Below are positions 8,275-20,363 of a DNA stretch of 64,000 bases, piece after piece (the first letter of the stretch is position 1; each line of letters begins with the position of its first letter). The notes beneath the pieces are model-generated. The model ran no database searches, had not been told where the DNA came from, and saw only the letters and a list, made by a program, of their open reading frames with translations. Both the position numbers and the translations under genes were made by a program. The stretch is from Paenibacillus donghaensis (GTDB taxonomy: Bacteria > Bacillota > Bacilli > Paenibacillales > Paenibacillaceae). The stretch spans positions 3,038,001-3,102,000 of the forward strand of contig NZ_CP021780.1 of NCBI RefSeq assembly GCF_002192415.1. The letters are read 5' to 3'.

Positions 8275-9414
8275 CTACTCAAGAATGCCGGTATCTACAA
8301 TTTTAACCTCCACTTTAGGATGGAATTGTACTTTACGATAATCCTTAGACCAATTTTTCTCCTTCCAGACATTGTGATGATAAGCAATAAGCTTTCTCCC
8401 AACACCAAAAATATCACAGTTAGCCTTTTGGACTTCTTCCACAACCGATTCGGCTTCCTTTGTGAGAATTTCCGAAAGTGCTTGATTAATTTTTTGAAGA
8501 TCTTTCTCTTTTAACGAACGCTCTCCGGGAAACTCTTCTACGATGGCTTGAAGTTTTAACTCCAAATTGACTTCAACACTTTCGTCAGCAGAAACCGATA
8601 CCTTGAATTTGCGTTTCACTTTTTTTAAACCTACATTAATGGTAATGTACTCCTGTATATTGTCCGGATAGCCCAGAACAATTTTCTTTGTGAATCGCGC
8701 ATTTTTTCCCTTTTGCCCCTTCAGTAGGACTAGTAATATTGACTGATCTGGGTTCAGCATCCCGCTATAATACTGATCATTAAAAAGGGCCAATCCTTTC
8801 GTGATAATCTCGTTGCTTTCTATAGCTATATAGGGAAGAGCAAAGTCCTGCCCAGGATCCTTCAGGAATCGGAACACGGTATCTAACGTTTCTTTTGGAA
8901 ATACACTCATTTCCTCAAGACTTACAATCTTTTGTGTAATGAATTCGCCAATCTTTAATTCCCCAACCATTTTTTGTTCAAGAATGTCGGAGGCATTTCC
9001 TTCCGCAATAATTACCCTAACGTTGGATGTCGGGTTGGTTGGATCCCTGAAGTTCACATCCAAATTAGAGTAAAGGCCATGCTCGGCCACTGACTTTCCA
9101 AATAATTGAAAACCATTTTTAAGAAATCTTATGTTTCCCCTCACTCGATTACGCATCTCATTGCTGGCACTACGTAGGTTATGTCCATAACTCGTATGAA
9201 TTTCGCTCGTAGTAGCTTTTTGCTCAATATCAGGTGGAATGATTAATTCCACAGTTTCTTTTATCATTCCATTTTCACTTAGATCAAACCCCACACTGTA
9301 GGCCAGATGCAAGTCTTTCAAATATTCCCGGTCCCAGCATCCGGTGAGGCTGAGGGGGAAAAGAATAATCAACACCGACAGTGCAAACGTTCCTAATTTC
9401 ACGCGCCATCTCAT
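8275..9414 (-). CDS. gerC: Ger(x)C-family spore germination lipoprotein
   Basis: A 379-residue lipoprotein, third gene of a gerABC operon. The start is the ATG at 9414, which overlaps the stop of the B subunit gene (ATGA). The N-terminus MRWRVKLGTFALSVLIILFP followed by LSLTGC is a lipoprotein signal peptide, and CWDREYLKDLHLAYSVGFDL is the standard GerC mature start. The C-terminal domain (about residues 200-375) has the GerAC fold with LGYPDNIQEYITINVGLKK and ILTKEAESVVEEVQK. The frame upstream of 9414 is open through the B gene and should not be counted. It works with the A and B subunits as a germinant receptor in the spore inner membrane. The substrate is unknown. Confidence 0.93.
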   Translation of the reverse strand: MRWRVKLGTFALSVLIILFPLSLTGCWDREYLKDLHLAYSVGFDLSENGMIKETVELIIPPDIEQKATTSEIHTSYGHNLRSASNEMRNRVRGNIRFLKNGFQLFGKSVAEHGLYSNLDVNFRDPTNPTSNVRVIIAEGNASDILEQKMVGELKIGEFITQKIVSLEEMSVFPKETLDTVFRFLKDPGQDFALPYIAIESNEIITKGLALFNDQYYSGMLNPDQSILLVLLKGQKGKNARFTKKIVLGYPDNIQEYITINVGLKKVKRKFKVSVSADESVEVNLELKLQAIVEEFPGERSLKEKDLQKINQALSEILTKEAESVVEEVQKANCDIFGVGRKLIAYHHNVWKEKNWSKDYRKVQFHPKVEVKIVDTGILE

Positions 9415-10505
9415 GCAAGGCCACTTCCTTTTCTCTTTATAAATAGAGAAATGATTAACATTACCAGCGGGAGTCCACCAATAAAGAGATAGGCAGCATA
9501 TGTAGAGGCTGTATCCAGTAGATGAATGCCAACAGAAGTGACTGGCGCAAGCGCGATTATAAATGTAATGATTTTCACAAACGGAGTAAAATTTCGATGG
9601 CTTTTCCGTCTCAATAAAACACTGAACCCCATGGACGCTGCATAGCAATAGCTTACGATAGAACATACAAGGGTTATGGTCCAGATCGGCAAAAACAAGA
9701 TATCTGCACGGTCTATAATGAAAAAGCTTAGAGATTTCATTAAGTAAATGACCGGTTCGGGAATCATTTTGATTTGCTCGGAGTTAAAGAACATCAGACA
9801 GGTAGAGACCACGAAGAAATAGAACAGAGTCACAAACAAGTTAGAGAGACTGACCGTTATCAATTTTTGTTTATCTGTACCTTCAGACAGCGGGTAGATG
9901 ATCAGCATTAATTCGAAACCATACATAGATATGGTTGTTTCCTTTGCTCCTTTTACGATATTCCAGAAACCTTTTTCCAATAGCGGTAACATATTTTCTA
10001 GATGGGCTTGAGTTAATCCATAGATGATAAATAAAAACAGTGGAATAAAAAGCATGGAAGCTAGCGTATAAAATCTTGCCAATACTGTCAGCTTTTCTCT
10101 TGCGAGATAGAGAGTCATGATAGAAAAAAGAGCTAGTACAGCCCATCTTGGCGTAGTTTGCAGCATCCATCTCCGGAGCACCTCAACGGCACTAAGCATA
10201 ATATTGGAGCCAAGCAGAATAAAGTAACCGATGTACAGAATAATCAATAGACTGCCAATAATCGGGCCTCCAAGTTTTATGCAAATACCGAATAGGTTAA
10301 GACCGGGGAATTTCTTCAGCAGGACCCACAGGAGAATGATGACAAGTTGGGTAATAACCCCTGCAACTAAAACAGAAAGTCCACCTCCACCTTTGGCAGT
10401 TTCGTTAAGTTTGTTAGGAAGAGACAGAATACCAACACCGATTTGGGCTTGAATAATAAAAAGGAAGAGTTGTCCCCTTGTGATCTTTTTTTCTTTTTGA
10501 GCCAC
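9411..10505 (-). CDS. gerB: GerB-family spore germination permease (endospore germinant receptor subunit B)
   Basis: A 364-residue protein with about ten transmembrane segments, of the GerAB/amino acid-polyamine-organocation superfamily. The N-terminus KKITRGQLFLFIIQAQIGVG, then ILSLPNK, carries the family's unwound helix 1 glycine-rich segment, and GFELMLIIYPLSEG is typical of helix 6. It overlaps the C subunit gene by four bases and lies 36 bases after the A subunit gene, so the three are one operon. The B subunit is the likely germinant-binding component of the receptor. Confidence 0.93.
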   Translation of the reverse strand: MAQKEKKITRGQLFLFIIQAQIGVGILSLPNKLNETAKGGGGLSVLVAGVITQLVIILLWVLLKKFPGLNLFGICIKLGGPIIGSLLIILYIGYFILLGSNIMLSAVEVLRRWMLQTTPRWAVLALFSIMTLYLAREKLTVLARFYTLASMLFIPLFLFIIYGLTQAHLENMLPLLEKGFWNIVKGAKETTISMYGFELMLIIYPLSEGTDKQKLITVSLSNLFVTLFYFFVVSTCLMFFNSEQIKMIPEPVIYLMKSLSFFIIDRADILFLPIWTITLVCSIVSYCYAASMGFSVLLRRKSHRNFTPFVKIITFIIALAPVTSVGIHLLDTASTYAAYLFIGGLPLVMLIISLFIKRKGSGLA

Positions 10506-10541
10506 CGTATCAACTCCTGTAAGTACTGTGTAGATTAATGA

Positions 10542-11966
10542 TCATTTATTCGTTTTTGGGTTGCTTGTACTCTTTCGGATGGACCAAATTGGAAAGCGTA
10601 CGAAGGTATCCTTCAGGCCTTGAAAATTTAACGGACTTAATGGTCTAAGGTAGGGTTGCCCAAAAGATTCTAGCTTGCACAAATGTATGAAAATGAGTGT
10701 TAACCCAAATGATATCCCAATATATCCGAATAATGAGGCAGCAATCATCAATGGAAACCGCATAAACCGGATAGCAGAGCTCATTTCGTTGGAAGGGATA
10801 AGAAAAGATGCAATGGCAGTCAACGCTACAACAATGATCATCGAATAAGAAACCAGTCCTGCCTTAACAATTGCATCCCCGATAACCAACCCCCCAACAA
10901 TCCCAATAGTCTGACCTACACGGTTGGGCAGACGAAGTCCTGCTTCCCGCAACAGTTCGAATATAAGTTCAAGCAGCATCGCTTCAATCAGCGGAGGAAA
11001 AGGGACCCGGGTCAATAAACCTTGAATCGAAAAGAACAATTGCAAGGGAAGGACATTGGAGTGGAAAGAAACAGTGGCAATGTAGAGCGCTGGCAACTGA
11101 AATGCTGTTACAAAGCCGATCAGACGGATAAACCGGACAAAAGAAGCGATCATCCATCGATTGTTATAGTCATCCGGTGTCTGATAAAAGCTGAAGAAGC
11201 TCGCCGGCAAAATCAAAGCTGTAGGGTCCCCATCCAGCAGTAGGGCGACATATCCGTCCAGTAAATAGGATGAGGTATGGTCCGGACGCTCCGTATTGAT
11301 TAGTTGTGGAAATATGGAGAAGGAGTTATCCTCCGTCAATTCCTGAATAAAGCCAGTGGTGATTACCCAATCGAGCGAAATCTTCTTTATTCTTGATTCT
11401 ACAATCTTTATCAATTCAGGTTTGGCGATATTCTCCATATATACCATGCCTACCTGTTTGGGGGCGAATTTTCCAAGTGTGAAGTAGCGGACAATAAGGT
11501 TTGGGGATGCTATTTGTTTCCGAATCAGGTATAAGTTAACCTTCATCTGTTCAATAAAACCGTTATGAGGTCCCCGAATAACCCCTTCATTCTCAGGTTC
11601 GCTAATGCTTCGTTCGTATTTGGCAGGAGTGAAGAGGACATAAAATTCAGACGTTCCTTCTAAAAAATAAAGACAGCTTCCTTCAAGAAGCCCCTGAATA
11701 CCTTGGTTTAGTTCTGTTTCCAAACTGAAACTAAGTGTTGTGAACAGCTCAGGAAGGTCTTTGTCCTGATTACGGCTAAAAGGAACAATCACATTTCGTT
11801 CAATCAAATCTGTATCAGTGAGAGACTCCAGATAAATGACCATTCCTTCCTTTCCGTGAAAGGATAAGCATCTTTTTTTGAGGTCACTTGTATAGAACAG
11901 TGCGGCTTCGATGTAATCGGAATTTTGATCTACAGAAGGAAATGAGGTCTGAGTTTGGTTAGTCAT
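10542..11966 (-). CDS. gerA: GerA-family spore germination protein (germinant receptor subunit A)
   Basis: A 474-residue GerA/SpoVAF family protein and the first gene of the operon. Residues 1-240 are a cytoplasmic hydrophilic domain, and the C-terminal half contains about five membrane segments, including AFQLPALYIATVSFHSNVLP, LPNRVGQTIGIVGGLVIGDA and MSSAIRFMRFPLMIAASLFG, all strongly conserved family blocks. An AAAGGTGA site precedes the ATG. Expression in the forespore (SigG) is expected for the family, but I could not identify a clear SigG promoter. A 7-bp inverted repeat GTTCCCG/CGGGAAC lies upstream (12005-12041). Confidence 0.95.
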   Translation of the reverse strand: MTNQTQTSFPSVDQNSDYIEAALFYTSDLKKRCLSFHGKEGMVIYLESLTDTDLIERNVIVPFSRNQDKDLPELFTTLSFSLETELNQGIQGLLEGSCLYFLEGTSEFYVLFTPAKYERSISEPENEGVIRGPHNGFIEQMKVNLYLIRKQIASPNLIVRYFTLGKFAPKQVGMVYMENIAKPELIKIVESRIKKISLDWVITTGFIQELTEDNSFSIFPQLINTERPDHTSSYLLDGYVALLLDGDPTALILPASFFSFYQTPDDYNNRWMIASFVRFIRLIGFVTAFQLPALYIATVSFHSNVLPLQLFFSIQGLLTRVPFPPLIEAMLLELIFELLREAGLRLPNRVGQTIGIVGGLVIGDAIVKAGLVSYSMIIVVALTAIASFLIPSNEMSSAIRFMRFPLMIAASLFGYIGISFGLTLIFIHLCKLESFGQPYLRPLSPLNFQGLKDTFVRFPIWSIRKSTSNPKTNK

Positions 11967-12126
11967 TATAAGGCGCTCACCTTTCGATTAGTTTTGCTGT
12001 TAACGTTCCCGAATGATTTGCAGAATATTCCTGACGGGAACTTTAATGTGTGATAGAAATGAGATAAGAGTTCTGAAGCGGAGCGAAAATGAGCAAATCA
12101 TCGACCGCTTAAGAACAAAACCAAAG

Positions 12127-12160
12127 AATGCGCCTTCATTCGTGAAGAGGGGGCATTTTG
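12127..12160. terminator. Terminator-like hairpin in the ger/riboswitch intergenic region
   Basis: AATGCgCCTTCA pairs with TGAAGagGGgGCATT around TTCG, followed by TTGGGCTTCTTTT. No gene reads into it from the plus strand, so its purpose is unclear; it may belong to a lost gene or a short transcript. Confidence 0.4.
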
Positions 12161-12249
12161 GGCTTCTTTTGCCATCCGCAACGTTTTACATTAAATGGCC
12201 ACAGGCGTAAGATTCAATCAATAACCGAATGTAATATAACTGTTCTCAA

Positions 12250-12427
12250 ATGGCTGAATTCCGATAGTGGGAACGGGGGAACCAATGGTGATTGCGGCTT
12301 TCGCTCTGATGCTGCCGCTCACTTGGGGTGAATCCTTGCTGCGTGCTGAGAAGCCGATCTGGCAAGGTAGGGCAATCTCGCTGCCCGAATCCGTCAGCTA
12401 ACCCCGTAAGCCTCGAAGAGAGAGGAT
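12250..12427 (+). promoter_or_regulatory. c-di-AMP riboswitch (ydaO/yuaA family)
   Basis: The conserved blocks of the ydaO-yuaA riboswitch appear in order: GGCTGAATTCCGATAG, GGGGGAACCAAT, a variable hairpin (GCGGC...GCCGC), GGGGTGAATCC, a second variable arm, GGTAGGGCAATC...GCCCGAATCCGTCAGC, TAACCCCGTAAGC, and a final GAGAGAGGA. This is a nearly complete match to the RNA that binds two c-di-AMP molecules. It sits in the leader of the NfeD-flotillin operon and is followed within about 20 bases by an intrinsic terminator. High c-di-AMP should therefore favour termination, as in other members; the gene-off direction is inferred from the family. Confidence 0.93.
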
Positions 12428-12448
12428 GAGCGCCATGATCGATTAACC

Positions 12449-12485
12449 GACCACGGAGAGCCCTGACGCTTCTGTGGTCTTTTTG
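12449..12485 (+). terminator. Expression-platform terminator of the c-di-AMP riboswitch
   Basis: GACCAC (12449-12454) pairs with GTGGTC (12474-12479) and is followed directly by TTTTT. The position, just 3' of the aptamer and about 130 bases before the coding region, is what a transcription-terminating riboswitch needs. Confidence 0.85.
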
Positions 12486-12612
12486 CTGCGCATGCAGAAA
12501 GAAAAGTTGGTCTGTATGAAGGACTAGAAATCTCATAACAACGAAAATCAGAGACATTAGGCACTATCTAAAATGCTTTAAAGGGGGGATTGTTATCGTT
12601 ACTGTATTTATC

Positions 12613-13131
12613 GTGTGTTTCTGGGTTGGATTAATGCTTCTCCTCAGCGGCGGATTTCATGGGCATGGCCTGGCGGGTCATCTGCATGTGGGAGGTGGCG
12701 ATGCTGGTGGTCCGGGCTTTGTGCCCATACTCCCTCTAATGGTGTTTGTCGCGGTCTGGGGTGGCACTGGTTATGTGCTTACCCGGTTCAGCGGTATGAA
12801 TATGCTTGCAGTGGTGCTGATCTGCACCGTGGTTGCCTTGCTTCTGGGTTGTCTGATGTATGTGGTGCTGGCCCGGGTGATGACTCGGTATGATAGTAGC
12901 ATGAATAAAATGGATTATGAGCAGGCGGGACAACTCGGGTACATCAGCATTTCTGCAATGGATGGAGCTGTTGGAGAAATGAAATATGTGCTGCATGGAA
13001 CGATGCGTTCCATTGGAGTGCGGGCAGAAACCGGCCAGCAGCTCGTGAGGGGCGACAGGGTGATTATTCTAAAGGTGGATAAAGGAATGGCGGCAGTAAC
13101 CCTCTTCGAGAGGAAAATCGACCAATTATAA
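12613..13131 (+). CDS. NfeD/YuaF-like membrane protein, flotillin partner
   Basis: A roughly 172-residue membrane protein. There are three hydrophobic helices (near residues 1-14, 34-57 and 64-88), then a soluble beta-barrel OB-fold domain (about 110-172) with QLGYISISAMDGAVGEMKYV and GQQLVRGDRVIILKVDKGMA. That layout is the short NfeD family, which is usually encoded beside flotillin, as here. The start is uncertain: GTG at 12613 is 24 bases from the strong GGGGGG site at 12583-12588, and the frame is open upstream, so a rare ATC at 12595 or ATT at 12589 would fit better and complete the first helix. Expression should be governed by the c-di-AMP riboswitch. Confidence 0.85.
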   Translation: MCFWVGLMLLLSGGFHGHGLAGHLHVGGGDAGGPGFVPILPLMVFVAVWGGTGYVLTRFSGMNMLAVVLICTVVALLLGCLMYVVLARVMTRYDSSMNKMDYEQAGQLGYISISAMDGAVGEMKYVLHGTMRSIGVRAETGQQLVRGDRVIILKVDKGMAAVTLFERKIDQL

Positions 13132-13153
13132 ATAACGGGGAGTGTCGAACCGA

Positions 13154-14575
13154 ATGGTTATTCTTTATTTAATCTCGGCAATTGTTGTTGTTATCCTGCT
13201 GGCTTTGTTCAGTATTGTGAACGCTTATAAAAAGGTTCCGCCCAATCAGGCGATGATTGTGTACGGCCTCGGCGGAAAAAGAGTGGTTCAGGGCGGCGGG
13301 ACGTTCGTCATCCCCGGCTTCCAGAACAATAAGACCATCTCCATGATGCTGATGAGCTTCGATGTCATCCCTGCGCAGGCGATGTTCTCCCGGCAGGGCA
13401 TCAAGCTCAACCTAGAGGCGGTAGCTCAGATTAAGATTAAAAGCGATCCTACCGCTATTCTGACTGCCAGTGAGCAGTTTATCGACAGGCCGGAAGAAGA
13501 CCGCGAGACGATTATCCTGCATTCGGTGGAAGGCCATTTGCGCGGCTTGATCGGACAATTAACAGTGGAATCCATTCTAAAGACACCTGACGAAATCAAC
13601 AGCAAGATGCGGGAGACCTGCTCGGAAGACCTCGACAAGATGGGGCTTGAGGTGGTCAGCTTCACCATTAAGAAAATTACTGATGACAAAAGGTATATCG
13701 ACAATATGGGGGTTCCGGAAATTGAGCGCATCCGACGCGATGCCAGCATCGCCAAGGCGGAAGCGGAACGCGACATTCAGATCAAACAAGCCGAGGCAGA
13801 GAAAGAATCCTCCATTGCCAAAGCCAATGCGCATCAGGCCACCATTGAAGCGGGAACCGCTGCTCGGGCCAAGGAATCTCTGTTCGAGAAGGATTTGAAC
13901 ATTAAGCAGGCGGACTTCAAGCTGGAGACTGAAGTGAAAAAAGCACAAGCGGATCTTGCGTACGAATTGCAGCAGAACAAAATCAAGCAGTCGCTGGTTA
14001 CCGAACAGGTCAAGATCACGCAGATGGAAGCGGAGGCCAACCGGACCGTCCGGGAAATCGAAGTTGAGCTGAGACAGAAGGAGTTGGAGGCAACGGTGAT
14101 CAAGCCTGCTGAGGCGGAGAACCAGGCTACGATCATGAGAGCGGAAGCAGCCAAGCAGCGGCAAATTCTTGAGGCGGAAGCAGAGGCGGCCACAATTACC
14201 AATCGGGGGCTAGCAATAGCGGAAGCAGAACTGGCGAAGGGGAAAGCCAACGCGGAAATTGTTCAACTGGCCGGTGCGGCGGAAGCGGGGGCACTGGAGA
14301 AGAAAGCTGAAGCGTACAAACAGTTCACGCAAGCCGCACTTATAGTGGAATTCTTGAAGGTTCTGCCAGAGCTGGCTGACAAAATCGCTTCCCCGCTGGC
14401 CAAGGTCGATAAGATTACAGTGATATCCCAGGATGGAGCTTCATCCGGCGTGAACAAAATTACCGGCGATATCGCCAAAATCATGGCCCAAGTTCCTGAA
14501 TTGGCACAGACGCTTACCGGTATGAACGTGACAGAGGCTCTCAGCGGACTGCTCGGCCGGGATAAAGAGCAATAA
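13154..14575 (+). CDS. floT: Flotillin-like protein
   Basis: A 473-residue SPFH/flotillin. It has an N-terminal membrane hairpin or helix (residues 1-27), the SPFH domain (about 28-205, with NAYKKVPPNQAMIVYGLGGK and GGGTFVIPGFQ), a long alanine/glutamate-rich coiled coil (about 205-345, repeats such as KAEAERDIQIKQAEAEKESS), and a C-terminal oligomerisation region. It organises functional membrane microdomains. The ATG at 13154 is preferred because GGGGAG lies 11 bases upstream; a GTG at 13142 overlaps that site. It is directly downstream of the NfeD-like gene, an arrangement like B. subtilis yuaF-floT. The riboswitch leader suggests control by c-di-AMP. Confidence 0.93.
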   Translation: MVILYLISAIVVVILLALFSIVNAYKKVPPNQAMIVYGLGGKRVVQGGGTFVIPGFQNNKTISMMLMSFDVIPAQAMFSRQGIKLNLEAVAQIKIKSDPTAILTASEQFIDRPEEDRETIILHSVEGHLRGLIGQLTVESILKTPDEINSKMRETCSEDLDKMGLEVVSFTIKKITDDKRYIDNMGVPEIERIRRDASIAKAEAERDIQIKQAEAEKESSIAKANAHQATIEAGTAARAKESLFEKDLNIKQADFKLETEVKKAQADLAYELQQNKIKQSLVTEQVKITQMEAEANRTVREIEVELRQKELEATVIKPAEAENQATIMRAEAAKQRQILEAEAEAATITNRGLAIAEAELAKGKANAEIVQLAGAAEAGALEKKAEAYKQFTQAALIVEFLKVLPELADKIASPLAKVDKITVISQDGASSGVNKITGDIAKIMAQVPELAQTLTGMNVTEALSGLLGRDKEQ

Positions 14576-14602
14576 TTCTATAGCTTCGTAAACTTAGTAT
14601 AG

Positions 14603-14634
14603 AAGGGATCTGAATATCAAATAGCTGATCCCTT
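14603..14634 (+). terminator. Weak terminator-like inverted repeat after the flotillin gene
   Basis: AAGGGATC (14603-14610) and GATCCCTT (14627-14634) form a perfect 8-bp stem 27 bases after the flotillin stop. There is no T-run, so termination is uncertain; it may instead stabilise the transcript end. Confidence 0.4.
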
Positions 14635-14769
14635 ATAAGAACTAAAGAGAAGCTGGATTTTGAATTTCTTGCATAAGCACCGCTCTATTATGGAAAACTT
14701 CTGTAGTGCGAATAAACAGCATGATTCCATTTTTGGAGACTTATTTTGATTTCCTAGGAGGTTAACATT

Positions 14770-14958
14770 ATGACAAATCAGGATCCGCAGGAGCTTCTTA
14801 AGCGTAAACACGAGCTGGATGAGCAAAAAAGGCAGTTCACAAATTTTTCCCGAAGTGTTTGCGGCCATGGTGAGTTAGAAGCAGGCCAGGAATTCAGTAA
14901 TGACCGTCTGCCTGACGATCAAAACCGTATGAAATCTGTTGAGAATAAACGTGATTGA
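14770..14958 (+). CDS. Small hydrophilic protein of unknown function
   Basis: A 62-residue protein with an excellent start: TAGGAGGT lies 8 bases before the ATG. It is rich in charged residues (MTNQDPQELLKRKHELDEQK, then RQFTNFSRSVCG) with a helical first half and no membrane segment. I do not recognise the family. A strong terminator follows 18 bases after the stop. It lies about 190 bases downstream of the flotillin gene and could be the end of the same transcript or a separate unit. Confidence 0.7.
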   Translation: MTNQDPQELLKRKHELDEQKRQFTNFSRSVCGHGELEAGQEFSNDRLPDDQNRMKSVENKRD

Positions 14959-14976
14959 ACTTAAGAAAGCTATAAA

Positions 14977-15011
14977 AATAAGCCGATCCTTTACTGGATC
15001 GGCTTATTTTG
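14977..15011 (+). terminator. Strong rho-independent terminator
   Basis: AATAAGCCGATCC and GGATCGGCTTATT form a 13-bp perfect stem around TTTACT, followed by TTTG. It closes the small-protein transcript and isolates carbohydrate locus 1. Confidence 0.9.
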
Positions 15012-15128
15012 TACCCCTGAGAGGGGGCTTGTTTTATAATGGTGAACTCGAATCTTCTATAAATACAACCAATGCTCCCCAAAGGAATTCAGAAAAAAAT
15101 TGCTGTAGCCCTCCCACATTTTAATTTA

Positions 15129-15189
15129 TTACAAAATTCATTTAAGGGAGTACATTTTCTTATTTGCTCCGGTAGGTATAATGAAGGAC
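15129..15189 (+). promoter_or_regulatory. Locus 1 regulatory/promoter module, copy A
   Basis: The stretch from TTACAAAA through ATTTAAG, AGTACATTTT, CTCCGG and GGTATAATGA to GGAC is shared in the same order and spacing with 22458-22518. It contains a good -10 (TATAAT at 15178-15183) but no recognisable -35 at 17 bases, which fits an activator-dependent promoter. The obvious candidate activator is the AraC-type response regulator at 18921. Confidence 0.7.
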
Positions 15190-15231
15190 AGGACATGAGA
15201 GCTCCTTAATACAGCCGGAGGGATGAGAGAA

Positions 15232-16182
15232 ATGAAAGCGGTTTTAGACAGTAAACGAAACCATATCGGAATAAAAAGAAGAAACACTTTTTGGCTCAGG
15301 ATAAAAAGAGATGCCATCCTGTACGCCCTTTTGCTGCTGCCTCTGTCGTATATTGCCATTTTTAAATATGCTCCCATCTATGGATTGATTATGGCATTCC
15401 AGGATTACAACATTTTTGAAGGAATAAGGGGTAGCGAGTGGGTTGGACTGGATGTGTTCCGGTTTATTTTCCAGCAGGACAGCTTCTATCGTGCACTGAA
15501 GAATACGCTGGTCCTGAATGTTCTGGATTTGATCGCGGGATTCCCGGCGCCTATTCTGCTGGCGATTCTGCTCAATGAAGTGAGACAGGCAAAATTCAAG
15601 AAATTGACCCAGACCGTGCTTTATCTGCCTCACTTTATGTCCTGGGTTATTATTGGGGGTATCGTATACCTGATGTTCTCCAATAGCGGTATGGTCAATA
15701 ATTTCATGGCTAGCCTTGGTTTAGAGAAAATCGAGTTTCTGTCGCAGAAAACACCTTGGTTGATCACTTATATCTCCGTTGGCGTATGGCAGAATGTCGG
15801 ATGGGGGACCATCATTTATCTGGCAGCCATTACCGGAATCAATAAGGAATTGTATGAGGCCTCCGATATGGACGGCTGTACCAGGCTTCGTAAAATGTGG
15901 CATATTACACTGCCCAGCATTAAGCCAACCATCAATATTTTGCTGATTCTCCAAATTGGCAGGATGGTTTCCATCGGGTTCGATCGTCCCTTCGTGATGG
16001 GGAATTCACTGGTTAGCGAATACTCCGATGTTATCAGTACCTTCGTGTACAGAGTTGGTATTAGTTCGGGAGATTTCTCCCAGGCAACAGCGGTAGGATT
16101 GTTCCAATCCGTGGTTGGCCTGACCCTGCTGGTTTCCGCTAACTATATCGCGAAGAAATTAGGTGAGGATGGGATATGGTGA
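15232..16182 (+). CDS. ABC sugar transporter permease (LplB-type)
   Basis: A 316-residue permease of the CUT1 family, LplB branch, with six membrane segments and the cytoplasmic EAA loop ELYEASDMDGCTRLRKMWHI. The motif GWGTIIYLAAITGINKELYE is typical of importers of plant oligosaccharides in Paenibacillus. The ATG at 15232 is 9 bases after GGAGGG; an ATG at 15223 is too close. It begins MKAVLDSK, the first four residues being shared with the GH43 leader at 22557. It overlaps the second permease gene by 7 bases. The dedicated ATPase is absent, as usual for this subfamily, which uses a shared MsmX-like ATPase encoded elsewhere. Confidence 0.93.
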   Translation: MKAVLDSKRNHIGIKRRNTFWLRIKRDAILYALLLLPLSYIAIFKYAPIYGLIMAFQDYNIFEGIRGSEWVGLDVFRFIFQQDSFYRALKNTLVLNVLDLIAGFPAPILLAILLNEVRQAKFKKLTQTVLYLPHFMSWVIIGGIVYLMFSNSGMVNNFMASLGLEKIEFLSQKTPWLITYISVGVWQNVGWGTIIYLAAITGINKELYEASDMDGCTRLRKMWHITLPSIKPTINILLILQIGRMVSIGFDRPFVMGNSLVSEYSDVISTFVYRVGISSGDFSQATAVGLFQSVVGLTLLVSANYIAKKLGEDGIW

Positions 16183-17072
16183 GGATGGCGAACACTATGC
16201 GCAAAAAGAAAAAAATGAGTGTAGCGGATATTGCGATAATTGCATTTATTGTGGCCTTGTCCTTCACATGTATTGTTCCGTTCCTGTACATGATAGCGCT
16301 TTCCTTCAGCTCTAACGAAGCGATTGTTTCCCAAAAAGTAGGACTGTGGCCGGTAGGCTTCACAACAGAAACGTACAAAACCATCTTGAGCGATGTGGAT
16401 ATGCTTTATACGCTTGGATACAGTATTGTGCTTACGATTTTCTACACCATCGTATGTATGTTCCTGACCATTTGCGCAGCGTATCCGTTAACGAAGAAGC
16501 GGCTGTGGGGAAGAAACTTTATTTTGTCAGCCTTGGTCTTCACCATGTATTTCAGCGGCGGTTTGATTCCCTCCTATATTCTGGTTAAAAACCTGGGGAT
16601 GATGAATACGGTGTGGAGTTTGGTTCTGCCGGGCGCCATGAGCGTGTTTAACTTGATTATCCTGAAGACCTTCTTCACTTCTCTTCCGGAGAGTCTGGAG
16701 GAATCGGCTGCTATTGACGGATGTTCGGATCTAGGTGTTCTCATCAAGATTGTGCTTCCCCTCTCGTTGCCTTCGATTGCCACATTAAGCCTCTTCTATT
16801 CGGTGGACAGATGGAACGGATTCCAGGATGCACTGTTCTACATTACGAAAAAGGAACTGTATCCTATGCAGTTGAAGCTGTACCAGATCATTTCGGCCAA
16901 TCAGCAGCTGGATAGCCAACAAGGAGGAGAAGGAAGTATCGGCTCCTACATTGTGCCTGAGTCACTGAAAGCGGCCAGCGTTATGTTTACAACCATCCCG
17001 ATTTTGTTGATCTATCCCAAACTGCAGAAGTATTTCGTAGATGGTGTGATGACCGGAGCTATCAAGGGCTGA
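16176..17072 (+). CDS. ABC sugar transporter permease (YtcP-type)
   Basis: A 298-residue second permease of the CUT1 importer, with six membrane segments and the EAA loop SLEESAAIDGCSDLGVLIKI. The C-terminus KYFVDGVMTGAIKG is the standard ending of this branch. It overlaps the LplB-type gene by 7 bases, implying translational coupling. The two permeases form the membrane channel for the lipoprotein encoded next. Confidence 0.93.
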   Translation: MVRMANTMRKKKKMSVADIAIIAFIVALSFTCIVPFLYMIALSFSSNEAIVSQKVGLWPVGFTTETYKTILSDVDMLYTLGYSIVLTIFYTIVCMFLTICAAYPLTKKRLWGRNFILSALVFTMYFSGGLIPSYILVKNLGMMNTVWSLVLPGAMSVFNLIILKTFFTSLPESLEESAAIDGCSDLGVLIKIVLPLSLPSIATLSLFYSVDRWNGFQDALFYITKKELYPMQLKLYQIISANQQLDSQQGGEGSIGSYIVPESLKAASVMFTTIPILLIYPKLQKYFVDGVMTGAIKG

Positions 17073-17117
17073 TGGTAAAACATATTAGAATGAAGGGAGG
17101 GATTCCCGGGCTGGTGG

Positions 17118-17192
17118 ATGATGGATGTAAAGATGCAAGGGATTTACAGCGTGGACGATTTCAATAAATACGGGCATGAAAGGGTGGTTTAA
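17118..17192 (+). other. Short ORF, possible gene-start remnant
   Basis: MMDVKMQGIYSVDDFNKYGH followed by ERVV and TAA is encoded between the permease and lipoprotein genes, overlapping the latter's ribosome binding site region. It resembles the opening of a larger enzyme more than a random frame, but it is too short to identify. It may be what is left after a deletion that fused two operon parts. Confidence 0.2.
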
Positions 17193-17193
17193 A

Positions 17194-18795
17194 GTGAATA
17201 TGGGCATGAAGAAGATATCAGCAGTTCTGTTTAGTACAGCGCTTCTGGCCAGTGTTGCGGCAGGCTGTGGAGGTAATGACAAGAAGAGTGGAGAGACGGC
17301 ATCACCGGCGGCGTCAACCGCTGCATCAGCATCACCTTCTGATCCTCCTGTAACCTTGACTGTGGAAGTGTTTGACAGAGGTGTTCAGGGGCAGCCGGAC
17401 TTGAACAACAACACGTGGACCAAATACGTCAATGAAAAATTCGGCAAGCCCAATAACGCCATTGTAGAATATGTTTCTGTACCCCGCTCCCAGGAAGTAG
17501 ACAAGCTGAATGTATTAATGGCTGCCAACCAGGCTCCTGATATTTCCTTCACCTACGACGGTACTTTAGTAACCCGCTACGCCAAAAGCAATGGCCTCTA
17601 TACACTGGATGAATTGCTCGAGAACCAAGGCCAGCAATTGAAGTCTTACCTGGGCGAGAAAGTTCTTTCCTATGGGAAATATGATGGTAAACAAGTCTCC
17701 ATCCCGGGCAAGCGGACTCTGATTGCCTGGAACGGTATGTTTATCCGCAAGGATTGGCTGGATAGTCTGGGAATGCCTGTTCCGACTAACCGGGATGAAT
17801 TGTATGCAACGCTGGTTGCCTTCCGCGACAAGAACCCCGGTGATGTAAACGGTGTCATTCCGTGGGCAACAGCGGCAGCCGGCATGAACTACACCTTCGG
17901 TAACCTGGTACAATCCTTCTGGGGTGCGATGTCGGAGGAGGAATTCATTACCACCACCAACTGGTTGAAGCCAGGCCACAAGGATGCTTTCAAATGGCTG
18001 AACAAGCTGTATAATGAAAAGCTGATCAGCCCCGATTTTGCTCTGGACAAAACAACCAAGCAAGCGGATGCCGATGTGAGCAACGGCAAGGTAGGCTTCT
18101 ACGCTGCCAACTGGGATTATCCGCTGTTGCAAAAAATTCGTGATCCGCTGCTGCAAAATGCGCCGGGTGCCAACTTTGTTCCTGTAGATACCTTCAAGAA
18201 CTATGAGGGAAAATACCTGAAAGAGGTATACAATGAGAACGGGCTTTTCTCCTTTATCCCGAAAAGCAGTAAGAATGCGGAGCTAGCCATGAAGTATCTG
18301 AACTGGATGGCTGACCCGGAAGTGCTGTTCTTCCTGCAGTTCGGCGAAGAAGGCCTCAACCACAAGTTGGTAGACGGCATCCCCCAAGGGATTGCGCAAA
18401 CCGGCAAAAATATGCAAATGAGCAATCTGAATCTGGATTATACTCTGGTTGTAAACGGCGCAGAGCTGGGCGAAACCGAAAAGAATGTCAGAACGTATGC
18501 AGCAGCTTTAGCAGCCGGAGACCAGAACTATGAGAAACTGGCTATCGATTCATACAAGATCAATACGACAGACGGCTATACCAGCTTCTACTATGGCGTC
18601 CCGAACGAAGCTAATATCAAGTACGGCAAAACGTTGGGTGACATGAACAAGCAAATGATTGACAGGCTGGTCGTTGCCAAGCCGGCAGAGTTCGACGCTT
18701 TGTATGACAAGCTGGTGAAGGAATATATGGACGCCGGCGGTCAGGCTGTTCAAGATGAGAATGTGAAGAATTACAGAGAAGTCAAAGCCAACTAA
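17194..18795 (+). CDS. Extracellular sugar-binding lipoprotein of the ABC importer
   Basis: A 533-residue solute-binding protein. The signal peptide ends in the lipobox ASVAAGC, followed by a Ser/Ala/Thr-rich linker (about 25 residues) and a large two-domain binding fold typical of LplA-type proteins. The start is taken as the GTG at 17194, six bases after AGGGTGG; ATG at 17200 or the upstream ATG at 17176 are alternatives that keep the same lipobox. It captures oligosaccharides released by the secreted GH43 and GH115 enzymes for import through the two permeases. A terminator lies just after the gene. Confidence 0.92.
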   Translation: MNMGMKKISAVLFSTALLASVAAGCGGNDKKSGETASPAASTAASASPSDPPVTLTVEVFDRGVQGQPDLNNNTWTKYVNEKFGKPNNAIVEYVSVPRSQEVDKLNVLMAANQAPDISFTYDGTLVTRYAKSNGLYTLDELLENQGQQLKSYLGEKVLSYGKYDGKQVSIPGKRTLIAWNGMFIRKDWLDSLGMPVPTNRDELYATLVAFRDKNPGDVNGVIPWATAAAGMNYTFGNLVQSFWGAMSEEEFITTTNWLKPGHKDAFKWLNKLYNEKLISPDFALDKTTKQADADVSNGKVGFYAANWDYPLLQKIRDPLLQNAPGANFVPVDTFKNYEGKYLKEVYNENGLFSFIPKSSKNAELAMKYLNWMADPEVLFFLQFGEEGLNHKLVDGIPQGIAQTGKNMQMSNLNLDYTLVVNGAELGETEKNVRTYAAALAAGDQNYEKLAIDSYKINTTDGYTSFYYGVPNEANIKYGKTLGDMNKQMIDRLVVAKPAEFDALYDKLVKEYMDAGGQAVQDENVKNYREVKAN

Positions 18796-18809
18796 AAGTA
18801 ATTCATTGT

Positions 18810-18855
18810 ATTCGGATAAGCCACTTATTGTTCTTCACAGTGGTTTATCCGAATT
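18810..18855 (+). terminator. Intrinsic terminator between the importer and regulator genes
   Basis: ATTCGGATAAgCCAC and GTGGtTTATCCGAAT form a 15-bp stem with one mismatch around a 16-base loop, followed by TTCGTTTG. It likely limits readthrough so that the importer mRNA is more abundant than that of the two-component system. Confidence 0.75.
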
Positions 18856-18920
18856 TCGTTTGCTATTTTCGAACAGTGTTTCTATTATTCGGAGGAATCC
18901 ATATGTTCAGGAGGATACCC

Positions 18921-20363
18921 ATGTACAAGGTCATAATTGTAGATGATGAGTCGTGGGCGATTAGAGGAATCCGCAACGCCTTTGACTGGGATAAGTATGG
19001 TTTTGAAATCATAGGACAATTTACAAGCGCTTACAAAGCGTGGGATGCCATAAGAGCACAGGAACCGGACTTAGTGTTTACTGATATCCGGATGCCGGAC
19101 ATTTCCGGACTGGATTTGATGAAGCGGGCCAAAGCACAAGGGTTGAACGTTGAGTTTGTCATCGTCAGCGGATATGCAGAATTTGAATACGCCCAGGAAG
19201 CGCTGCGTTACGGCGCACTGGATTATTTCCTGAAGCCTTTGGATGTTGATATGGCTGATCAGTTCATTGCGAGGCTCGCCATGCACTTCTCCCGGAGAAG
19301 CGCTGCACGCAATCATCTCCTTCTTGATGCGCTGACCTCAGCGGATCAGGACGAGATAAAGCGCTTCCTTCCGCTCTCCGATTGCGCGGCTGTATGCTAT
19401 TACCAGGTGCTTGCTATCTATTTCGAGGGGGACAACAAGGATTTCATACAGCTGCTGTCTTTGGAGGGAAGGCCTGTTAATGCTGTGGAAGTTGAAGCCG
19501 GAACCAGAAAAATGCTGGTTGTGCTGATGACGGAGCATAGGGCTTGTTTGGAGGGGAGTTGGGATGAATTGCTTCTGAATAAGACTGGCATCCATGTTGT
19601 GGGCATTAGCAGCATCTCCAGCCAGCTTAAGCATATGAGCAAGCTGATTAAAGAAGCAGACCTGTCCGCCTCCCGGGTTTTTCTGGAGGAAGCTGCAGGT
19701 GCCGTTCACTACGAGCCGAAGCTTCAGCTGGTGAAACCATGTATCGATGGGCTCTATAGTCTCATTCAGGAGAATCAATTTGACAACATGGATGTGTACA
19801 TCAAAGGGCTGCAGGAATACTTTAGGAATCATCATCTGGGCATGTGTGAGGTTGTCTACTTGTGGAATCAGGCAGTCGGGATACTTGTAAACGCATATTC
19901 CGAGGAACTCAAAGATATGGAACTGGAATTTCTGAATTATTCCGAGATCAAGGAACGATTTGAACACTTTGAATCTATGTGCAGCTTTTTACATGACGTC
20001 CTCACCTCCATTAGGCATGGGAACAGCCGCTCCTTGCAGGAAGGGGATATCTTGTCCTGCTTCAACCGGATGATCGCCTATATCGACCGGCACTTTGAGC
20101 AGAAATTGTATTTGAAGGATTTGTCCGTCCAATTCTTCATCAATCAGGTGTATTGCTGTCAATTATTCAAAAAAAATCTGGGCAAAACCTTCTCCGAATA
20201 TGTGTCGGAGCTCAGGATCAAGAAAGCCCGTGAGCTTCTGAAGCAAACGGACCTATCCATTGAGAAAATTGCCATTAAGTCCGGGTATGTAGATTATTAT
20301 TATTTCAATAAAGTTTTCAAGAAGCATTGCGGGATGACGCCCACCAAATTCAGAAAAAGTTAA
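18921..20363 (+). CDS. AraC-type response regulator (YesN family)
   Basis: A 480-residue response regulator. The receiver domain (1-120) has the acidic pair D8/D9, phospho-acceptor D55 in LVFTDIRMPD, and K105 in DYFLKPLDVD. The middle is a helical linker, and the last 100 residues are an AraC DNA-binding domain with two helix-turn-helix motifs (KLYLKDLSVQFFINQVYCCQ; IEKIAIKSGYVDYYYFNKVF). The ATG at 18921 follows AGGAGGAT and gives the usual MYKVIIVDDE start; an ATG at 18903 also has a GGAGGA site. It pairs with the sensor kinase gene 20 bases downstream and is the likely activator of the two promoter modules at 15129 and 22458. Confidence 0.93.
   Translation: MYKVIIVDDESWAIRGIRNAFDWDKYGFEIIGQFTSAYKAWDAIRAQEPDLVFTDIRMPDISGLDLMKRAKAQGLNVEFVIVSGYAEFEYAQEALRYGALDYFLKPLDVDMADQFIARLAMHFSRRSAARNHLLLDALTSADQDEIKRFLPLSDCAAVCYYQVLAIYFEGDNKDFIQLLSLEGRPVNAVEVEAGTRKMLVVLMTEHRACLEGSWDELLLNKTGIHVVGISSISSQLKHMSKLIKEADLSASRVFLEEAAGAVHYEPKLQLVKPCIDGLYSLIQENQFDNMDVYIKGLQEYFRNHHLGMCEVVYLWNQAVGILVNAYSEELKDMELEFLNYSEIKERFEHFESMCSFLHDVLTSIRHGNSRSLQEGDILSCFNRMIAYIDRHFEQKLYLKDLSVQFFINQVYCCQLFKKNLGKTFSEYVSELRIKKARELLKQTDLSIEKIAIKSGYVDYYYFNKVFKKHCGMTPTKFRKS

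Follow-up and report, generated by a model that had tools for sequence, protein, structure and literature searches.

The locus and its genes

The window analysed here is a stretch of 64,000 nucleotides of the Paenibacillus donghaensis genome, and it carries on its plus strand a leader followed by two genes, one for a YuaF/NfeD2-like membrane protein (most likely 12595–13131) and one for a flotillin (13154–14575, with the start ATG at 13154 and an in-frame GTG at 13142 as an alternative). The leader contains a sigma-A-like promoter (12185–12213; TTTACA-17 nt-TAAGAT), the aptamer of a c-di-AMP riboswitch of the ydaO/yuaA class (RF00379; 12242–12427), an intrinsic terminator (12449–12484), a conserved AATCTCATAACAACG element (12529–12543) and the Shine-Dalgarno sequence of the NfeD-like gene (AAAGGGGGG; 12580–12588). 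The first-pass annotation of this DNA had described the same arrangement within 12250–13131; these limits are too narrow, since the flotillin gene lying outside them belongs to the finding. Divergent from the leader, spore germination genes occupy 8275–11966 of the minus strand (a GerA domain is encoded in 10542–11966, and the two other genes were assigned by reading). Downstream, 15223–20363 holds an ABC transporter permease (15223–16182, by Pfam), followed by genes read as a second permease, a lipoprotein-like binding protein and an AraC-type response regulator.

The aptamer matched the RF00379 model over its full length (positions 1–134) with 99.3 bits (E 2.4e-22), the gathering cut-off being 38 bits, and it was the sole gathering-level match that Rfam gave in the 64 kb of the window. 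It lies 5′ of genes on the same strand, with a promoter upstream and with a terminator as expression platform: a hairpin at 12449–12479 (GACCAC...GTGGTC, −17.6 kcal/mol) followed by U5. A ydaO/yuaA riboswitch with its terminator before these genes is what had been read from the letters alone, and the poor covariance score that would have spoken against that reading was not obtained. By its class, the RNA would be expected to bind c-di-AMP.

The flotillin combines the SPFH/Band_7 domain (PF01145, 96 bits against a cut-off of 23.6) with the Flot domain (PF15975, 39 bits against 27), and matches PDB chains named Flotillin-1 and Flotillin-2 over nearly the full length. It reached 329.9 of the 700 bits required by the NCBIfam FloT equivalog (NF058507) and is not filed as FloT. 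The genome also carries a canonical NfeD-flotillin operon, at 881 kb, whose flotillin is 38% identical to that of the window. No RF00379 match was found in the stretch taken around this canonical operon (L070), nor in the 2.7–2.8 kb on the upstream side of the canonical flotillin gene in any of 20 genomes, out of the 67 of the genus that have no intact window-type flotillin.

The assignment of the NfeD-like protein comes from its C-terminal domain, which resembles that of YuaF (PDB 2k14): a profile built from 18 relatives, leaving out the canonical paralogue, matched 2k14 at E 1.5e-6, and one of 25 relatives including it at E 1.1e-9. A single-sequence search of the PDB gave no NfeD match, and hmmscan of the window protein against Pfam matched no NfeD model. 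Precomputed tags assigned PF25842 to 35 of 44 relatives, a few of them being named Membrane protein NfeD2 N-terminal. The AlphaFold model was too poor to use (mean pLDDT 57, with the C-terminal part below 50), and Foldseek with this model gave no match at E ≤ 0.001.

Conservation and origin of the leader

Conservation within the genus was followed in a sample of 100 genomes, the window's own included. RF00379 sites occur in all 100, among the matches listed, and a window-type flotillin in 33, the other 32 being 93–98% identical to that of the window. Across the family (394 genomes), a search at E ≤ 1e-100 gave such a flotillin in 33 genomes, none of them outside this genus. The riboswitch stands upstream of the operon in 31 of the 33 (the window, 19 of the 20 loci of one set and 11 more, loci that were too short having been refetched complete); the lack of conservation in relatives that, by the first-pass annotation, would have spoken against its proposal was not seen. 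One of the remaining two genomes (G080) has lost the aptamer core and kept promoter, tail and terminator; the other (G088) has lost both aptamer and terminator, and its promoter is kept close to the gene. The terminator is thus present in 32 of the 33 orthologous leaders.

From the end of the aptamer to just inside the gene, 21 of the 30 leaders measured have 144–193 nt and nine have 345–2241 nt. Hundreds of bases have been inserted between terminator and gene in L055, L056, L074, L075, L076 and L077, several of these insertions containing repeats, and one long spacer (L071; G045, L077) places more than 2 kb with transposase-like reading frames, identified by reading, between riboswitch and gene. 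Two further loci of the genus are unusual: G044 (L078) retains only a fragment of a window-type flotillin, 80% identical over about 110 residues and with one stop, in a stretch without riboswitch, and G002 has a second RF00379 site after the flotillin gene and before a KimA-like permease (L080, 3582–3768 of the reverse complement).

The promoter, TTTAC(A/T)-17-TAAGAT, stands ahead of the riboswitch site in all 33 orthologous leaders, both deletion genomes included, and the homologous promoter in G442 and G478, of another family, reads TTTACA-17-TATTAT. Judged from its position, transcription would start at about 12219–12221. A consensus scan of 11500–15500 found one promoter-like site, against 5.4 expected in shuffles, and is not significant by itself. 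The element after the terminator reads T(A/T)TAACAAC in 31 of the 33 leaders and CATAACAAC in the window's own and in L049; two matches to the pattern AWTCNYATAACAACR were found in the 8.5 Mb genome.

This TATAACAAC-type element raises the possibility that the riboswitch is real, yet that a second promoter near the element drives most nfeD-flotillin transcription and leaves c-di-AMP with a minor effect. The element is conserved in the genus, survives the deletion of the leader in G088 and is kept where insertions alter its distance to terminator and gene. We nevertheless consider a dominant second promoter unlikely. No −35/−10 pair, and in particular no −35 partner of the element, is conserved 3′ of the terminator in 21 aligned leaders; L054 has nearly everything between terminator and element deleted; the promoter scan gave no site between terminator and gene; the element was not seen in the leaders of G442 and G478; and the upstream promoter is retained throughout. 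An independent promoter 3′ of the terminator was rejected as the main driver for want of a conserved −35. The bypass of the riboswitch by such a promoter, which the first-pass annotation had named as a way for its proposal to fail, did not materialise: the recognisable promoter stands before the riboswitch site, even in G088. A pairing of TATAACAAC with the start region was also dropped, as by eye it is not conserved.

The operon also exists in other lineages. An order-wide search of 392 genomes, whose query was a protein of the g42/g50 group itself, found relatives 65–74% identical to each other in genera g42 and g50 of family f6. RF00379 was absent from the 1.5 kb before the flotillin gene at all 28 main-copy loci of g42 and from the operon of G505 (g50), and where RF00379 was listed genome-wide (11 genomes), the eight g42 genomes besides G478 had no site near the operon. 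The operon therefore works without a riboswitch. Two operons do have the leader, one being a second copy in G478 and the other that of G442 (genus g44), and in both of them promoter, aptamer, tail and terminator are conserved; the flotillin of G442 (L216) is split over two reading frames behind a complete leader. Because the parts of the leader outside the aptamer are shared as well, the resemblance suggests common descent with losses, or transfer, more readily than independent capture. In a flotillin tree built from 22 of the 33 flotillins of genus g1 and 14 of the 28 g42 main flotillins, the G442 and G478 copies group with each other next to G505, separate both from the g42 main copies and from the genus of the window; the tree, whose bootstrap is not settled, needs four changes of riboswitch state and fits an ancestral leader with losses and transfer alike.

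Since g42 main copies run the operon with no such leader, and the aptamer has been lost in 2 of the 33 genomes of the genus, the leader could be imagined as a relic that terminates constitutively or no longer binds its ligand, the operon being expressed otherwise. A relic would be very hard to reconcile with an aptamer core that is nearly invariant in 21 aligned leaders while variable stems and surroundings differ, and with complete matches that still score 91.7–100.3 bits in the genus, and we regard this reading as quite improbable.

Proposed switching and probable translation start

We propose an antiterminator in which UAGGGC-AA-UCUC (12368–12379), which forms the 5′ strand and the loop of a hairpin in the aptamer, would pair with GAGA-GCCCUG (12456–12465), which overlaps the 5′ arm and loop of the terminator. 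The first strand reads GGGCAATCTC in 28 and GGGCTATCTC in 3 of the 31 intact aptamers, and the second GAGAGCCC in 28 and GGAAGCCC in 3 of 31; three leaders with an A-to-U change in the loop have a shortened arm and keep the pairing. At the second strand, GATAGCCC was seen only in one of the 32 terminators, that of the leader without an aptamer core. By reading, G442 and G478 have one mismatch in this pairing. Covariation is thin, nearly all columns being invariant among 23 distinct sequences. A complement scan of the window leader ranked UAGGGC/GCCCUG second; the terminator arm has its longest unbroken complement at 12296–12302, which was not chosen because its stem varies between leaders.

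The computed antiterminator duplex has −8.6 kcal/mol in 28 of the 31 intact leaders and −7.2 to −8.0 kcal/mol in the other three. When forced in folding before the 3′ arm of the terminator exists, the antiterminator lies 1.3–1.9 kcal/mol above the minimum, and with the complete terminator it is about 10 kcal/mol worse (−74.8 versus −84.9), values from a program that is blind to the ligand-bound fold. As a model, a kinetic choice between the two structures would fit these energies.

The leader is most likely an ordinary transcriptional OFF switch, a direction that follows from relatives in which RNAs of the ydaO class were shown to terminate with c-di-AMP; in the available text on a Dehalobacter tandem riboswitch, for example, c-di-AMP causes termination (PMC9337991). 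Polymerase would start about 22 nt 5′ of the aptamer. At high c-di-AMP the aptamer would be folded, its hairpin would hold UAGGGC-AA-UCUC, and the GACCAC/GUGGUC terminator would form and switch the operon off. At low c-di-AMP, as under potassium limitation or osmotic stress, UAGGGC-AA-UCUC would instead pair with GAGA-GCCCUG of the terminator 5′ arm, so that transcription reads through. The opposite direction, in which c-di-AMP favours read-through and more flotillin is made at high turgor or potassium, is barely credible, as ydaO-class RNAs of similar anatomy terminate with c-di-AMP in the material seen of two reports (PMC6488665; PMC9337991).

After read-through, translation of the NfeD-like gene would probably begin at AUC. 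The first-pass annotation was right that the gene is there; its start is most likely ATC 12595 and not the listed GTG 12613. Of the 33 genomes of the genus, 32 read ATC at this position and one reads ATA, and in the leaders a Shine-Dalgarno-like purine run lies a few nucleotides before it. GTG 12613, six codons further on, is GTG in 22 of the 33 and absent in 11, and was rejected as a universal start. Between the upstream stop and the ATC there is no in-frame ATG, GTG or TTG in 18 of the 33; the other 15 have at least one, none of them shared. In L074 an in-frame stop lies six codons upstream of the ATC, and the next ATG, GTG or TTG 25 codons downstream.

Constancy of the codon is not by itself proof of an AUC start, because two inner isoleucine codons of the gene are equally invariant (ATT in 33 of 33). 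What favours it is the Shine-Dalgarno spacing, the lack of alternative starts and the position at which relatives have ATG. Among the g42 main copies, the equivalent codon and the one after it read ATG ATG in 25 of 28, TTG ATG in 2 and ATG ATC in 1; by reading, an ATG lies two codons upstream of this position in G442 and G478, and G442 also has one at the position itself. Taken together, initiation at AUC is in our judgement very probable for the genus of the window. Database entries of the gene are very uneven in length (109 to 202 residues); some come from short contigs, but one 111-residue entry is on a 5.27 Mb contig. If true, such a fixed non-canonical start codon would be rare, and it would give rise to misannotation. 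The bacterial gene infC has an AUU start codon, and the NfeD-like gene would resemble it in conserving a near-cognate start, with the differences that its codon is AUC and that it shows no sign of initiation-factor feedback. With AUC as its start, the NfeD-like protein would probably be made in small amounts compared with flotillin; for an rny fusion of B. subtilis, expression was much lower with an AUC start mutation, according to the part of the report available (PMC10303841).

A flotillin operon as probable riboswitch target

Sequence and comparison between genomes establish the aptamer, the terminator, the position of the promoter, the gene order, their conservation and the lack of a shared canonical start. 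From these we are confident, short of certainty, that premature termination at an ordinary ydaO/yuaA c-di-AMP riboswitch controls the operon, which joins a YuaF/NfeD2-like gene to that of a second, lineage-restricted flotillin. To say that c-di-AMP would thereby determine how abundant membrane microdomains are in cells is to extrapolate from this reading. If true, membrane-domain scaffolding would join the processes switched directly by c-di-AMP, which in the portions seen of the literature are mainly transport, osmotic and wall functions. The genome without aptamer and terminator, the genome with the gutted aptamer and the riboswitch-free sister genus would serve as natural controls.

Control of the scaffold may even have two steps, a tentative idea that we hold with some reserve: c-di-AMP would gate transcription of nfeD-flotillin alongside potassium uptake and wall hydrolases, and the lineage-specific AUC would throttle the NfeD-like protein against flotillin, possibly in an IF3-sensitive manner. 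If so, the messenger that governs turgor would also govern membrane organisation.

The own genome has six RF00379 sites. The five others precede, as read from translations only, a KimA-like permease, an RpfB/YabE-like protein and three NlpC/P60-like hydrolases, which are the classical kinds of target. In the available text of two papers, targets of the class comprise transporters thought to be osmoregulatory, amino acid and K+ transport, and wall remodelling (PMC3766115; PMC7266159). RNA-seq of P. riograndensis SBR5 confirmed 11 of 98 predicted RNA motifs, and the sole ydaO-yuaA among them precedes a wall hydrolase, in the portion of the paper available (PMC5670726). A study of c-di-AMP and membrane microdomains of S. 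aureus under statins does not contain the word riboswitch in its main text (PMC13385884). The first-pass annotation did not count flotillin membrane microdomains among the known targets, and such a target appears to be unreported: none was found for flotillin or NfeD in the literature searched, mostly below full-text depth, and a prior listing in target surveys (Nelson 2013, Block 2010) is possible. The RNA belongs to a known class, and its target is of an apparently new kind.

Among known switches, the leader most resembles that of kdpFABC in B. thuringiensis, an OFF switch by experiment, with an aptamer from +28 and a terminator 143 nt before the gene in the text available (PMC6488665). Both have a full, high-scoring aptamer with the terminator directly after it, a promoter before it and a gene about 110–145 nt past the terminator. 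Unlike the known ydaO/yuaA systems, the leader of the window has an NfeD-flotillin operon as its target. In B. subtilis, the corresponding operon has the order yuaF-yuaG(floT)-yuaI, and the window shares with it a YuaF/NfeD2-like gene directly before a flotillin gene. Unlike FloT, however, the flotillin of the window is a second paralogue that stays under the NCBIfam FloT cut-off. In the part of the report available, yuaF, floT and floA of B. subtilis rise in outgrowing spores at high salt in a sigma-W-dependent manner (PMC5052260), and this induction by salt fits an osmotic role. Control of the yuaF operon by sigma-W distinguishes it from the operon of the window, in which, if our reading is true, an RNA takes the role that sigma-W has for the flotillin of B. 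subtilis.
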